The notes under the pieces: generated by a model
Databases searched by the model: none
What the model was told of the DNA's origin: nothing
Seen by the model: only the letters and a program-made list of their open reading frames with translations
Assembly: GCF_031181385.1 (NCBI RefSeq)
Contig: NZ_JAPSKV010000015.1
Span: forward strand, 1 to 64,000
Direction: 5' to 3'
DNA: 64,000 bases
From: Fredinandcohnia onubensis
GTDB taxonomy: Bacteria > Bacillota > Bacilli > Bacillales > Bacillaceae_L
Part shown: positions 5,541 to 61,097 of the stretch, piece by piece
Position numbering within the stretch: the first letter of the stretch is position 1
Layout: every line of letters starts with the position of its first letter
Translations under genes and position numbers: made by a program

Positions 5541-5579
5541 TTTATAGGATCAAAGACTAAAAACGCCACATCCTGTGGA
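5541..5579 (+). repeat. Fragment of the interspersed hairpin repeat
   Basis: TTTAT at 5541-5545 is followed by a 29-bp run (5551-5579) matching the shared repeat module at 23399, 24095 and 42878: CAAAGACTAA, then CGCCAC, a TCCT loop and GTGG. The rest of the module is missing. It lies between sigB and ndoA. Confidence 0.75.
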
Positions 5580-23189: not shown

Positions 23190-23299
23190 TTTCCAACATC
23201 CTTTTCATAAGTTAATCCTATTATAAGCGAAAAATAATAGAAACGAAAAACCCATGTGACATCGTACTCTTTTTGCGTTATTGTAAGATGAGGTAATAG

Positions 23300-23497
23300 T
23301 TTAACTTTATTCAGTCGCGGTTTTACACCCCGACTGAATAAAGTTAAAGCCTCCGGCGGATGCCACGATTTTTCAAAGGAAATTTTTCGAGTAGTAAGAT
23401 CAAAGACTAAATACGCCACTTCCTGTGGCAACGTCTTTATGACCTACTTCCTGTAGGCCTAAAAATCGGGCGCAAATACGCCAAGGCGCATTTGATA
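23300..23497 (+). repeat. Interspersed repeat, family 2, copy A (composite)
   Basis: 198-bp element between the rhodanese and vanZ genes. One end is an inverted repeat AACTTTATTCAGTCG / CGACTGAATAAAGTT. Then comes AAAGCCTCCGGCGGATGCCAC, a T-rich stretch and, at the other end, the imperfect palindrome CAAATACGCCAAGGCGCATTTG. The same order occurs, inverted, at 52298-52430. Copy A carries an extra segment of about 62 bp (23399-23460) with two hairpins (GCCAC-TTCCT-GTGGC and CCTAC-TTCCT-GTAGG). That segment is shared with the family 1 elements at 24095 and 42878. Confidence 0.85.
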
Positions 23498-23516
23498 AGA
23501 ATGGAGTTTTATTCAA

Positions 23517-23945
23517 TTGGGGCACGCAACGAAACGGTTTTTGGCTGGTACAGTGTTTATCACTTATTCATTATTTCTTCTATATTGGATGTTTTTTGCA
23601 TTTTCCCGGACAGAAGGAGGGGAATTCAGGTATAATCTCACACCCTTTTCAACAATCAAAAATTACTTTACGTATTATGATCATTTTCCTTTTCACATTT
23701 GGATCATTAATATTGCCGGTAATATAGGTGTTTTTATACCATTTGGAATCGTGTTGCCGATTCTTTTTCCAAAGCTATCAAATTTCTTTTTATTTATCTT
23801 CGCTTTTGCCATCGGGATCACTTCTCTCGAGGTTCTACAGCTTTTTAGTATGCTCGGTAGTTTCGATGTAGATGACATTATTCTGAATACAGTTGGGGCT
23901 GTGATTGGTTATATTTTATTGCGAACACGCAAAAAAAGGAGATGA
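23517..23945 (+). CDS. VanZ family membrane protein
   Basis: 142-aa protein with four membrane helices and the VanZ pattern: FSRTEGGEFRYNLTPFSTI after helix 1, NIAGNIGVFIPFGIVLP, and SLEVLQ...DVDDIILNTVGAVIGY. VanZ relatives are associated with teicoplanin tolerance and glycopeptide response; most, like this one, have no proven role. It begins with TTG at 23517, ten bases after GGAG. Its upstream region is the family 2 repeat. Confidence 0.87.
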   Translation: MGHATKRFLAGTVFITYSLFLLYWMFFAFSRTEGGEFRYNLTPFSTIKNYFTYYDHFPFHIWIINIAGNIGVFIPFGIVLPILFPKLSNFFLFIFAFAIGITSLEVLQLFSMLGSFDVDDIILNTVGAVIGYILLRTRKKRR

Positions 23946-23984
23946 GGTCAAATACGGTCATGTATTTGAAACCTCATCTCCTTT
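23941..23984 (+). terminator. Terminator after vanZ-like gene
   Basis: Near-perfect 15-bp stem GATGAGGTCAAATAC with complement, overlapping the stop codon. It abuts the TTTAT end of the repeat element at 23982. Confidence 0.85.
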
Positions 23985-24205
23985 ATCCCGCATTAACGGG
24001 CAGTATGCTCCACAATTTAAATCTTTAATATAAAACAATTATATAAAGAAATTTCTCCATAATCACTGCCCGTAAAAGCCCGATTATCGAACAAAGACTA
24101 AGAGCGCCACGTCCTGTGGCAACGTCTTTGTGACACACATCCTACGTGCCTCAACTAACAATCAGCGCGGGATGAAGAACCCCACTGATTGAAGTTTCAC
24201 TTTAT
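23982..24205 (+). repeat. Interspersed repeat, family 1, copy 1 (bcr1-like)
   Basis: Element of about 220 bp bounded by TTTAT at both ends (23982-23986 and 24201-24205). It begins CCCGCATTAACGGGCAGTA and later has ACTGCCCGTAAAAGCCCGAT, which pairs with it (CGGGCAGT/ACTGCCCG). Next is a nested hairpin ACAAAGAC...GTCTTTGT enclosing GCCAC-GTCCT-GTGGC, and the end TGATTGAAGTTTCAC. The second copy is at 42776-42993. The length, TTTAT duplication and folded structure are those I recall for bcr1 of the B. cereus group; identity was not checked. The right-hand TTTAT contains the stop codon of the gene at 24202. Confidence 0.88.
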
Positions 24206-25119
24206 CGATTAACGGAAGCTGCCATTCTTATATATGTATGACGTTTTCCGCGGATAGCGATTGAATAGGTCATAATGTTTTCTGGGACAGCAATTCCATG
24301 ATACCCGGCATCTCCAATATGGTAAATATCCGCACCGGCCATTTTACTAGTTAGTGCAATTTGACGTATAGTTGCTTCATCAGCACCCTCTTGGCTGGTA
24401 CCAATTGTCAGCATAACCATCGCGCCCTTTGCATGAACAAAACGGACATTTTTCTCGGTTGCTTCAAGAGTAATTCCCGGAACCGTCCCGGGTGCTGGCA
24501 TTAAGATGACGTCCGCTCCTGCTTCAATAAAACTTTCTAAAGCTGTTTCAGAAATGATTCCGCTGCCTGATTCATTGGCAACGCCTGCACCATGCATTTT
24601 GCCAGCGATGATAAGGCCCTCACTTCCAAATACCTCACGAGCCTTCTTTATGGCAACGACAATTTCATTATTTGTAACACCTGTTTTCGGATTACCCGTT
24701 AAACAAACAAAATCGAAGCCAAGCTTTTTTGCTTCACTCAAGGACTCTTCTGTCGCCAAACGTCCTTTCGGAAGCTGGCTTAATGTTTCAAGTTGCATTG
24801 CATTTGGGTCAACTGGCTCTAAATTCAATCCAATGGGTCTGCCTGTTAACTCCTTCAATTTCTCGACAATCGATTCACCCTCTTGTGCTTGAAAACCTTC
24901 TACAAAAGGAGAAAACACATCAAAATAATTAAAGATTAACAAATCGGCACCAAATGCTGAAGCCATTTCTGCGTTCGTCACTGCTGGATACATTGGTTGG
25001 AAGGAACCAATCACTTCGGATAAAATGGTTCTTCCTTCTGAAGCTTTTATGGCTTGTTTTATGTCCTGGCCGTTCATTTTTTTGAAGTCTGAGGCTGTGC
25101 AATCTAATAAACGTTTCAT
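24202..25119 (-). CDS. TIM-barrel protein of unknown function in the nag operon
   Basis: 305-aa soluble protein. Motifs such as ADLLIFNYFDVFSPF, GRPIGLNLEP, GFDFVCLTGNP, EGLIIAGKMHGAGV and AGADVILMPAPGTVPGIT look like successive strands of a beta/alpha barrel. I associate it with a family variously labelled PEP phosphonomutase-like or haloacid dehalogenase-like (a DUF); no enzyme activity is known to me. It lies 16 bp downstream of nagR in the same direction, so a role in amino-sugar use is inferred only from context. Its stop codon is inside the TTTAT end of the adjacent repeat. Confidence 0.8.
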   Translation of the reverse strand: MKRLLDCTASDFKKMNGQDIKQAIKASEGRTILSEVIGSFQPMYPAVTNAEMASAFGADLLIFNYFDVFSPFVEGFQAQEGESIVEKLKELTGRPIGLNLEPVDPNAMQLETLSQLPKGRLATEESLSEAKKLGFDFVCLTGNPKTGVTNNEIVVAIKKAREVFGSEGLIIAGKMHGAGVANESGSGIISETALESFIEAGADVILMPAPGTVPGITLEATEKNVRFVHAKGAMVMLTIGTSQEGADEATIRQIALTSKMAGADIYHIGDAGYHGIAVPENIMTYSIAIRGKRHTYIRMAASVNR

Positions 25120-32946: not shown

Positions 32947-33190
32947 AACCACGCCCCTAAAAAAGGGACGTGGTTGCACGCGGTACCACCCTTGATTGAA
33001 GATATGCATCTTCCGCTTCATTCGAATAACGGCTCGTCCGTTCTTTGCTAATTTACACTAAAAGTGCGTTCACAAAGAAAGCTCAAGGAGGTAATTCACA
33101 TTTATCTTTGTTCCGGTTTTCACCAACCACCGGCTCTCTGCTACAGGGAGATAAGCTGCTACTGATTCCTATCATCACTTTTCTATTCAA
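32947..33190 (-). promoter_or_regulatory. T-box leader of tyrS (tyrosine)
   Basis: On the reverse strand the canonical T-box sequence AGGGTGGTACCGCG lies at about 32978-32991. It is followed by a terminator (CCACGTCCCT / AGGGGCGTGG plus T-run, 32947-32975). Stem I is upstream, with a likely specifier TAC (33091-33093), a tyrosine codon. Uncharged tRNA-Tyr should favour the antiterminator. The leader fills most of the 397-bp gap 32908-33304; a cre-like sequence TGTAAGCGCTTAAT lies at 33275. Confidence 0.95.
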
Positions 33191-42775: not shown

Positions 42776-42993
42776 TTTATTTATCCCGCATTAACGGGCA
42801 GTATATCCACACTCAAAACTTTAGTGAAAACATAGGAGTTTAAACGGGAAAACTGCCCGTAAAAGCCCGATCATTGAACAAAGACTAAGAGCGCCACGTC
42901 CTGTGGCAACGTCTTTGTGACACACATCCTCTGTGCCTTAACTAACAATCACCGGGCCATAAAGAAACCCCGCTGATTGAAGTTTCACTTTAT
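42776..42993 (+). repeat. Interspersed repeat, family 1, copy 2 (bcr1-like)
   Basis: Same order as the copy at 23982-24205: TTTAT, CCCGCATTAACGGGCAGTAT, ACTGCCCGTAAAAGCCCGAT, the nested hairpin ACAAAGAC/GTCTTTGT with inner GCCAC-GTCCT-GTGGC, AACTAACAATCA, and TGATTGAAGTTTCAC before the second TTTAT (42989-42993). Ends and hairpin module are nearly identical to copy 1; the segment between the first two arms differs. It lies 18 bp from the stop codon of the gene at 43011. Confidence 0.88.
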
Positions 42994-43010
42994 CGAGAAG
43001 GACCTTTCCG

Positions 43011-45592: not shown

Positions 45593-45870
45593 TGTCTCAA
45601 TCAGCACTGCATTCTGACTCTCTTGTGCTGATTTCCTACTCTCTCTGTCACAATCAGCACTCTATTCTGACTCTCCTCTGTTGATTTCCCACTCTCTCTG
45701 TCACAATCAGCACTCTATTCTGACTCTCATCTACTGATTTCCTACTCCCTCTGTCGCAATCAGCACTCTATTCCGACTCCCCTCTACTGATTTCCCACTC
45801 TCTCTGTCCCAATCAGCACTCTATTCCGACTCTCCTCTGCTGATTTCCCACTCTCTTTGTCGCAATCAGT
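45593..45870. repeat. 53-bp tandem repeat, five copies plus a part
   Basis: TCAGCAC recurs at 45601, 45654, 45707, 45760 and 45813, and TCAGT at 45866, always 53 bp apart. Each unit has AATCAGCA and a TGCTGATT-like arm about 18 bases away, then ACTCTCTCTGTC. In the first and fifth complete units the arms pair perfectly; in others one or two positions vary. Since 53 is not a multiple of three and stops occur, it does not code for a repeat protein. It lies in the 580-bp gap between the oxygenase and Mta-like genes; outside it I see only the terminator at 45986. Confidence 0.95.
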
Positions 45871-45985
45871 GTTTTGTTCGAATACAACACAGTTGATACC
45901 CACATCTCTGGCCAAATACACGGGACAACTCCTAGTAAAATTCCTCCAAGACCACGTACAAACTGAAATAATTCTCACTTAGAAC

Positions 45986-52297: not shown

Positions 52298-52430
52298 TAT
52301 CAAATGCGCCTTGGCGTATTTGCTGCCCAGATTTTTTCGAGCCCGCTCGAAAAACTACCTCTAAAAATCTGTGGCATCCGCCGGAGGCTTTGACTTTATT
52401 CAGTCGGGCTACCTACTGAATAAAGTTAAA
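52298..52430 (-). repeat. Interspersed repeat, family 2, copy B
   Basis: 133-bp element filling the proB-proA gap. Read on the reverse strand it begins with the inverted repeat AACTTTATTCAG / CTGAATAAAGT, continues AAAGCCTCCGGCGGATGCCAC, then TTTTTCGAG-type hairpin, and ends with CAAATACGCCAAGGCGCATTTG. This is the order of the copy at 23300 but without its 62-bp double-hairpin module. The proB stop codon (52426-52428) is inside the terminal repeat, and the proA binding site begins right after the other end. Confidence 0.88.
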
Positions 52431-56824: not shown

Positions 56825-56975
56825 TTCTTATCAAGAGAGGCGGAGGGACTGGCCCTGTGAAACCTCGGCAACGGACGATTCGTACCGTGCCAATTCCAGC
56901 AAGTAAGCTTGAGAGATAAGAAGAGGATACTGGAATTAACTTTCTGCCCTCTTCTGTCTGAAGAGGGCTTTTATA
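56825..56975 (+). promoter_or_regulatory. SAM-I (S-box) riboswitch with terminator
   Basis: Closing stem CTTCTTATC / GATAAGAAG (56825-56923) encloses the S-box core AGAGAGGCGGAGGGACTGGC, CCTGTGAAACCTCGGCAAC and CCAATTCCAGCAA. A strong terminator GCCCTCTTC / GAAGAGGGC plus Ts follows at 56946-56975. SAM binding should end transcription before metN. The region from 56976 to 57105 has no further structure that I recognise. Confidence 0.97.
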
Positions 56976-60991: not shown

Positions 60992-61097
60992 AGGACTGTA
61001 TGTAACTGGCGCACGCGGATAACCGCGAGGGAGCATATAGTGTCGGAGCCGTTCGCCTGGGCAGAGGTAAGGGAAAGTCCCTTGCCTCTTTCTGTTT
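60992..61097 (+). promoter_or_regulatory. ZTP (pfl) riboswitch with terminator
   Basis: AACTGGCGCACGCGG...CCGCGAGGGAGC and the downstream GCCGTTCGCCTGGGCA match the conserved parts of the ZTP/ZMP (pfl) aptamer as I remember it. A terminator AGAGGTAAGGG / CCCTTGCCTCT with T-rich tail follows at 61063-61097. ZTP signals 10-formyl-THF shortage. Placing it before serA links serine, the main one-carbon donor, to folate status. Confidence 0.9.

Follow-up and report, generated by a model that had tools for sequence, protein, structure and literature searches.

How does one short, structured stretch of DNA come to lie inside two otherwise different families of small repeats? The question arises in a 64-kb window of the Fredinandcohnia onubensis genome (contig NZ_JAPSKV010000015.1, positions 1–64,000; the whole stretch of DNA analysed), where the original prediction placed a double-hairpin segment at 23399–23460, within both elements of one family (F1) and one of two elements of another (F2), and proposed that such repeats are modular and trade a conserved RNA-like unit. 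The segment is present as described, and covariance-model searches assign all three full copies in the window to a single Rfam family, RF01690 (Bacillaceae-1 RNA; Table 1). We show here that several unrelated small repeats carry this module as a cassette, at internal positions that depend on the host, and that at orthologous copies it can be present in one species and absent in its sister (ten F2 sites and one F1 site).

Identity, fold and loops of the module

The module is the Bacillaceae-1 RNA, a unit of about 70 nt in which an outer stem surrounds hairpin 1 and hairpin 2 follows, with NUCCU or NUCGU loops. Likeness to RF01690 extends in sequence and structure over all 67 model positions (1–67 in each window copy) and lies far above the gathering score of 35 bits; two hairpins, conserved NUCCU-type loops and covarying stems are all found. 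An AGG/CCU stem often closes the module (seen by eye, and predicted in the F2 fold). A repeat search of the window returns 23398–23463, 24089–24154 and 42876–42941 as one family, and GCCACNTCCTGTGGC matches exactly at 23415, 24106 and 42893 and with one mismatch at 5565; by chance 0.15 matches would be expected, and four were not reached in any of 100 shuffles. The match at 5565 marks a fragment first noticed at 5541–5579, which proves to be a module copy ending after its first hairpin; it belongs to an insert of ~50 bases that is common to G004 and G006 and absent, as judged by match length, from G003 and G001 (G000 is the F. onubensis genome and G001–G008 are its congeners).

At E ≤ 0.001 the F. 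onubensis genome (4.26 Mb in 39 contigs) has 35 module copies, of which 34 score above the RF01690 cut-off. Aligned (A1), these copies have 94.0% paired cells under the Rfam fold, falling to 28–48% when pairing partners are shifted, and 8 of the 17 pairs show changes on both sides. The covariation that had been suggested as a check is present, with 48 double-change cells in A1 versus 13.6 ± 2.7 in 500 shuffles, none of which reached 48 and all of which ignore the relatedness of the copies. Loop 1 reads NTCCT in every copy of A1 (35/35) and in 29 of 33 copies of alignment A3 (A2 was left out of this count, as its retrieval pattern itself contains loop 1); loop 2 in A1 reads NTCCT in 19 and NTCGT in 11 of the 35. 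Predicted folding energies are −17.7 kcal/mol (z −2.4) for 23391–23462 and −69.7 kcal/mol (z −6.5) for the complete module-bearing F2 element (23300–23500).

Searching 23270–24220 below the Rfam cut-offs returned, beyond the module, only weak sub-threshold matches, none of which identifies the F1 or F2 host as a known riboswitch or ribozyme. Elsewhere in the window Rfam calls a T-box leader (32961–33184), a SAM riboswitch (56825–56922) and a ZTP riboswitch (60992–61069), all ordinary, and a tandem repeat with a 53-nt period (five overlapping matches) occupies 45593–45922. Distribution of the module is patchy: 24 of 40 genomes carry it, F. onubensis included, with 0 to at least 95 matches each, and within one genus a single genome has at least 95 matches and the other three have none. 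A search of phages and plasmids with one module query gave no match at E ≤ 0.001.

Table 1. Host repeats and module copies located in the 64-kb window.
Feature	Position	Strand	Basis	Remarks
F2 copy A	23300–23496	+	F2 search	Module in apical loop
Bacillaceae-1 module copy 1	23391–23457	+	RF01690, 71.4 bits; own model and covariation	In F2 copy A
Module copy 1, outer stem	23401–23407/23433–23439			
Module copy 1, hairpin 1	23415–23429			Loop UUCCU
Module copy 1, hairpin 2	23443–23457			Loop UUCCU
F2 copy B	52299–52430	−	F2 search	Module-free; between two ORFs
F1 copy A	23982–24206	+	TTTAT at both ends	Carries module
Bacillaceae-1 module copy 2	24082–24148	+	RF01690, 63.2 bits	In F1 copy A
F1 copy B	42780–42994	+		Carries module; with module in G006 too
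Bacillaceae-1 module copy 3	42869–42935	+	RF01690, 66.7 bits	In F1 copy B
Truncated module (5′ part and hairpin 1)	5544–5579	+	GCCACNTCCTGTGGC match, one mismatch	In no recognised repeat

Unrelated host repeats carry the module at host-specific positions

Module copies were gathered by a pattern scan of genomes that gave at least 117 stretches, 80 of which were used (Bacillales by title, except one labelled Pseudomonas sp. ISL-84). Our own model (R1) makes 97 matches in these 80 stretches and 33 matches in 28 loci from relatives, which with the 35 F. onubensis copies gives 165 modules, 164 of them distinct. By their flanks, the 164 fall into 10 clusters and 29 singletons. Cluster 0 is F2 (37 copies, 16 from F. 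onubensis), cluster 1 is F1 (34 copies, 4 from F. onubensis), cluster 2 is a repeat of the form AAAAGCGGAAG ... GCTAGAC (by eye; 27 copies, 4 from F. onubensis), cluster 3 is a repeat mostly of Halobacillus (14 copies), cluster 5 is a repeat with the ends GTTCAAAAAG ... CTTTTTGAAC (5 copies, 4 from F. onubensis) and cluster 7 is an Amphibacillus/Oceanobacillus repeat (3 copies). Similarities between clusters exist, some of them due to neighbouring modules or repeats, and because clusters 2, 4, 6 and 9 may form one superfamily we count at least five unrelated hosts. Module-free copies are found for F2, F1 and cluster 5 (L247, L248; cluster 5 by eye), and F2 copy B is indeed without the module, as had been predicted.

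The hosts F1 and F2 are mobile. The site of F2 copy A is empty in seven of eight congeners (G001–G007, as single continuous matches; the place was not found in G008). The site of F1 copy B is empty in G004, where TTTATC stands once, as against TTTATC at both ends of the filled site, and the locus of F1 copy A has no F1 in G004 (by eye). F. onubensis has at least 38 module-free F2 copies (the 40 places found among at most 40 scored candidates, minus two that bear the module) and 16 with the module. Looking up 36 of its F2 sites in the two close relatives G004 and G006 gives 72 cells: the site is filled in 26, empty in 45 and was not located in 1. F2 copy A is followed after 21 nt by a 142-aa ORF in the same orientation, and the ORFs flanking F2 copy B we take to be proB and proA. 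The 5′ end of F2 may likewise be modular: among the F. onubensis copies L005, L039, L058 and L004, the 5′ domain occurs in a short hairpin form and in a longer form with ~50–60 extra nucleotides.

Most of the F2 carriers shown hold the module in the apical loop, and most of the F1 carriers shown hold it in the CCCGA..TCAACTAAC loop. Each host also has a second position. In L101 and L112 the module lies between the 5′ hairpin and the core of F2, whose own apical loop is intact, and in L115 it lies in the 3′ hairpin loop of F1, where the F. onubensis copy L014 has a second, decayed module. Module borders in F1 and F2 differ, which disposes of the concern that the shared segment might be part of one nested insertion. 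Stems formed between the flanks and enclosing the module exceed the 95% line for mismatched flanks in 40% of 35 F2 carriers, in 11% of 27 in cluster 2, 8% of 12 in cluster 3, 3% of 33 F1 carriers and two singletons, and in none of the smaller clusters; we do not claim that the module always sits in a hairpin loop.

Bacillaceae-1 RNAs often lie near rRNA operons. In Bacillus niameyensis (L152:304–371) a module lies 6 nt past the 3′ end of a 16S rRNA gene and is followed by a AAAAGCGGAAG-type repeat, and at L225:1501–1568 and L229:523–590 modules lie inside 5S-like sequence (by eye), with an intact 5S rRNA gene at the same locus. L227:1423–1871 shows modules within modules, with five 5′ half-units of ~20 nt ahead of seven 3′ half-units that have a 43-nt period; the nested stems pair largely layer by layer, with many NUCCU hairpins in one stretch. 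Near the model match on the minus strand of L231 (1501–1568), incomplete module units follow one another in a lineage whose loops read ATCAC/GTCAC.

Presence and absence at orthologous copies

The F2 sites filled both in F. onubensis and in G004 or G006 provide 26 pairs, of which 16 agree in module state (5 with the module, 11 without) and 10 differ. F2 copy B is module-free in F. onubensis and has the module in G004, its site being empty in G006; with this copy included, the state differs in 11 of 27 pairs and at 10 of 21 sites. This count rests on the drafts G000, G004 and G006 (39 to 50 contigs), with G005 and G007 used for aligned sites alone and kept outside it. F1 provides a further case, copy A having the module in G000 but lacking it in G006 (by eye).

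We aligned nine differing sites plus F2 copy B. At the differing sites the 5′ hairpin, often locus-specific, is shared between species, and GCTCGA or a near variant stands in place of the module in the module-free copy; well-aligned pairs differ by little beyond the module. At L015 both sisters have the same locus-specific 5′ hairpin, yet the module is found in one copy alone; the right arm (AAATAAGCTA..GGCTTATTTGA), which no other F. onubensis copy compared has, recurs almost unchanged in the sister. At L010, G000, G006 and the more distant G007 (on a 4.55-Mb contig) all have the module and G004 does not, so that the loss took place in G004. Relatives carry a different F2 insertion near the same spot at L041 and L020; position alone is thus no proof, and each site rests on shared locus-specific arms. 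At L016 and L045 the two species' arms are several bases apart, the state at L037 was judged by length and visible module on a poor alignment, and the empty-site alignments of L024 and L040 are poor. Comparison of L015 with L304 (G006) reveals a compensatory G–C to A–T change in the F2 5′ hairpin, which could be due to selection or to palindrome correction.

Short-read drafts may mix the copies of a dispersed repeat such as F2, and three drafts underlie the count, so the switching might be an artefact of assembly. We hold this to be very improbable: the element spans ~130–200 bp and carries locus-specific 5′ hairpins, the states agree at 16 of the 27 pairs, and the module state at L010 is seen on the 4.55-Mb contig of G007. 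The idea of modular repeats trading one conserved RNA-like unit is upheld and extended, by the unit's identity as a named Rfam family, by at least five unrelated hosts and by presence or absence at orthologous copies in sister genomes.

Proposed exchange of the cassette and known systems

Strong conservation of fold and loops could point to a functional plus-strand small RNA or leader domain, for example one whose NUCCU loops pair to Shine–Dalgarno (SD) sequences. Gene context lends this some support: with ORFs called by length alone, module-bearing F2 copies lie upstream of a same-strand gene in 33 of the 34 (of 37) that have both neighbours called. Of the 39 F2 copies located in F. onubensis, module-bearing or not, 37 have a called downstream gene, which in 30 is on the same strand and often 15–60 nt away. 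The downstream gene is on the same strand, however, in 16 of 30 F1 carriers and 8 of 23 cluster 2 carriers, so orientation is a property of F2 and not of the module. Predicted SD access shows no consistent effect of the module, having fallen with the module at L042 and reached 0.32 and 0.71 in two L010 module copies (the SD was located by a crude motif list, which missed it in some copies), and the module can be present or absent at the same copy.

Two further observations speak against a function of single copies as RNA. Lone modules decay: at the L032 site they are broken in G001, G003, G005 and G007, at the L001 site at most short remnants are left in G001, G002, G007 and G008, and at the L035 site G005 has a decayed copy in the opposite orientation (by eye). 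Nor are G·U pairs favoured over A·C in the module, where the 15 inner pairs of A1, A2 and A3 hold 21 G·U and 23 A·C cells (7 and 11 in A1, 9 and 8 in A2, 5 and 4 in A3; such cells are not independent events), versus 172 and 77 in terminator-like hairpins of the same sequences (Fisher p 0.009 against the module; a set from a crude script, with the strand set by the T-run). Host hairpins, pooled, have 8 G·U and 14 A·C (p 0.004). Over all module pairs the counts are 28 G·U and 74 A·C, with most A·C in the two outermost pairs of helix 1, which some lineages do not form and which were therefore dropped; on the same ground we set aside the counts from a freely extended hairpin 1 (0 G·U, 10 A·C). Because lone modules decay and G·U pairs are not preferred, single copies look like passengers and not like conserved sRNA genes. 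A discrete small RNA at every site is not supported, and we rate the functional-RNA explanation as improbable.

We give scarcely any credence to a minus-strand variant, in which CAGGA(U/A/C)G hairpin loops would form a CsrB-type site and make the module a CsrA decoy. That motif is described for CsrB (in the accessible text of PMC7652899), and loop 1, read as its reverse complement together with the closing pair, conforms to it in 33 of 35 copies in A1 and 28 of 33 in A3, a likeness to decoy RNA in hairpin context. Loop 2, however, fits in under half of the copies (16/35 in A1, 16/33 in A3), the F2 minus strand is antisense to the gene, and the module is neither filed in a CsrB family nor a member of one. 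In favour of the decoy, csrA is present in 39 of 40 genomes; at that frequency it is uninformative as a partner, being there with or without the module.

We consider it moderately probable that the module is a self-folding cassette exchanged among dispersed repeat copies by short-tract gene conversion. Within F2 it would move between dispersed copies in this way, since the apical carriers compared have a common junction, close to which bases peculiar to each locus are kept. New hosts would be entered by separate and less frequent insertions, which a carrier might tolerate because a domain that folds on its own within a loop should disturb it little. Single copies would be passengers without a conserved local function, the fold being kept in the copies that spread. 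The NUCCU loops may have a role, and this counts against the explanation: the near-invariant loop 1 suggests that something reads it, and a pure passenger needs no such reader. Gene conversion over arms of tens of bases would here be unusually frequent for bacteria, which also counts against it, and no donor copy was identified.

The module might instead be mobile in itself, inserting into and excising from the loops of hairpin-rich DNA, with switching as insertion plus precise excision. Its lone copies (L001, L032, L035), its two positions in each of F1 and F2, the opposite orientations at the L035 site (the decayed G005 copy, by eye) and the nested modules of L227 all fit this. Against it, no target duplication is seen for the module, and aligned apical F2 carriers share their junction and replace the same GCTCGA, unlike fresh insertions; excision would have to rebuild the palindrome exactly, and L001 and L032 have no clean empty site. 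We regard such mobility as possible but doubtful. Similarly tentative, and in our view unlikely, is the idea that Bacillaceae-1 is a mobile element living on other mobile elements. Such a structural cassette would nest in itself and have an exchange route of its own (DNA derived from elements might, for example, anneal as single strands to resident copies); it would colonise the loops of unrelated repeats and keep many 5′ gene leaders switching between two states from one sister species to another.

Bacillaceae-1 has been in the literature since 2010 as an orphan Rfam family filed as a small RNA gene; here it is better read as an exchanged part of mobile repeats, and this reading changes how RF01690 matches are to be annotated and tested. 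Switching at 10 of 21 shared F2 sites makes a countable system for gene conversion or cassette exchange among short dispersed bacterial repeats. Because F2 carriers lie just upstream of genes (33/34), switching may also alter expression between sister species.

In the table of Weinberg et al. (2010; accessible text of PMC2864571) Bacillaceae-1 is certainly an RNA and probably not cis-regulatory, and Rfam files RF01690 as Gene; sRNA, whereas in the genomes compared here mobile repeats carry it as a cassette that a given copy may have in one species and lack in another. Our literature search found no paper on the sharing of Bacillaceae-1 between repeats. The F1 host is bcr1-like and TTTAT-flanked: according to the accessible text of PMC6542083, bcr repeats of the Bacillus cereus group have a TTTAT motif, one or more times, that is linked to mobility, and F1 has it at both ends and once at the empty site, a motif-based likeness; that text mentions no such module for bcr. 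REPINs and REP elements are likewise short, dispersed palindromic DNA (as far as the accessible parts of PMC3116915 and PMC3733652 describe them). By analogy, the nearest precedent is boxB of the BOX repeats in S. suis. BOX elements of streptococci are small modular repeats whose size varies between strains at one site, and in S. suis boxB lies between two different flank families, boxA/C and boxE/F (accessible text of PMC3049150). The resemblance is one of working and not of sequence: families with different flanks share an internal module, which varies from strain to strain. On that same account boxB varies in copy number within an element, whereas here one module is common to at least five unrelated hosts and switches between presence and absence.
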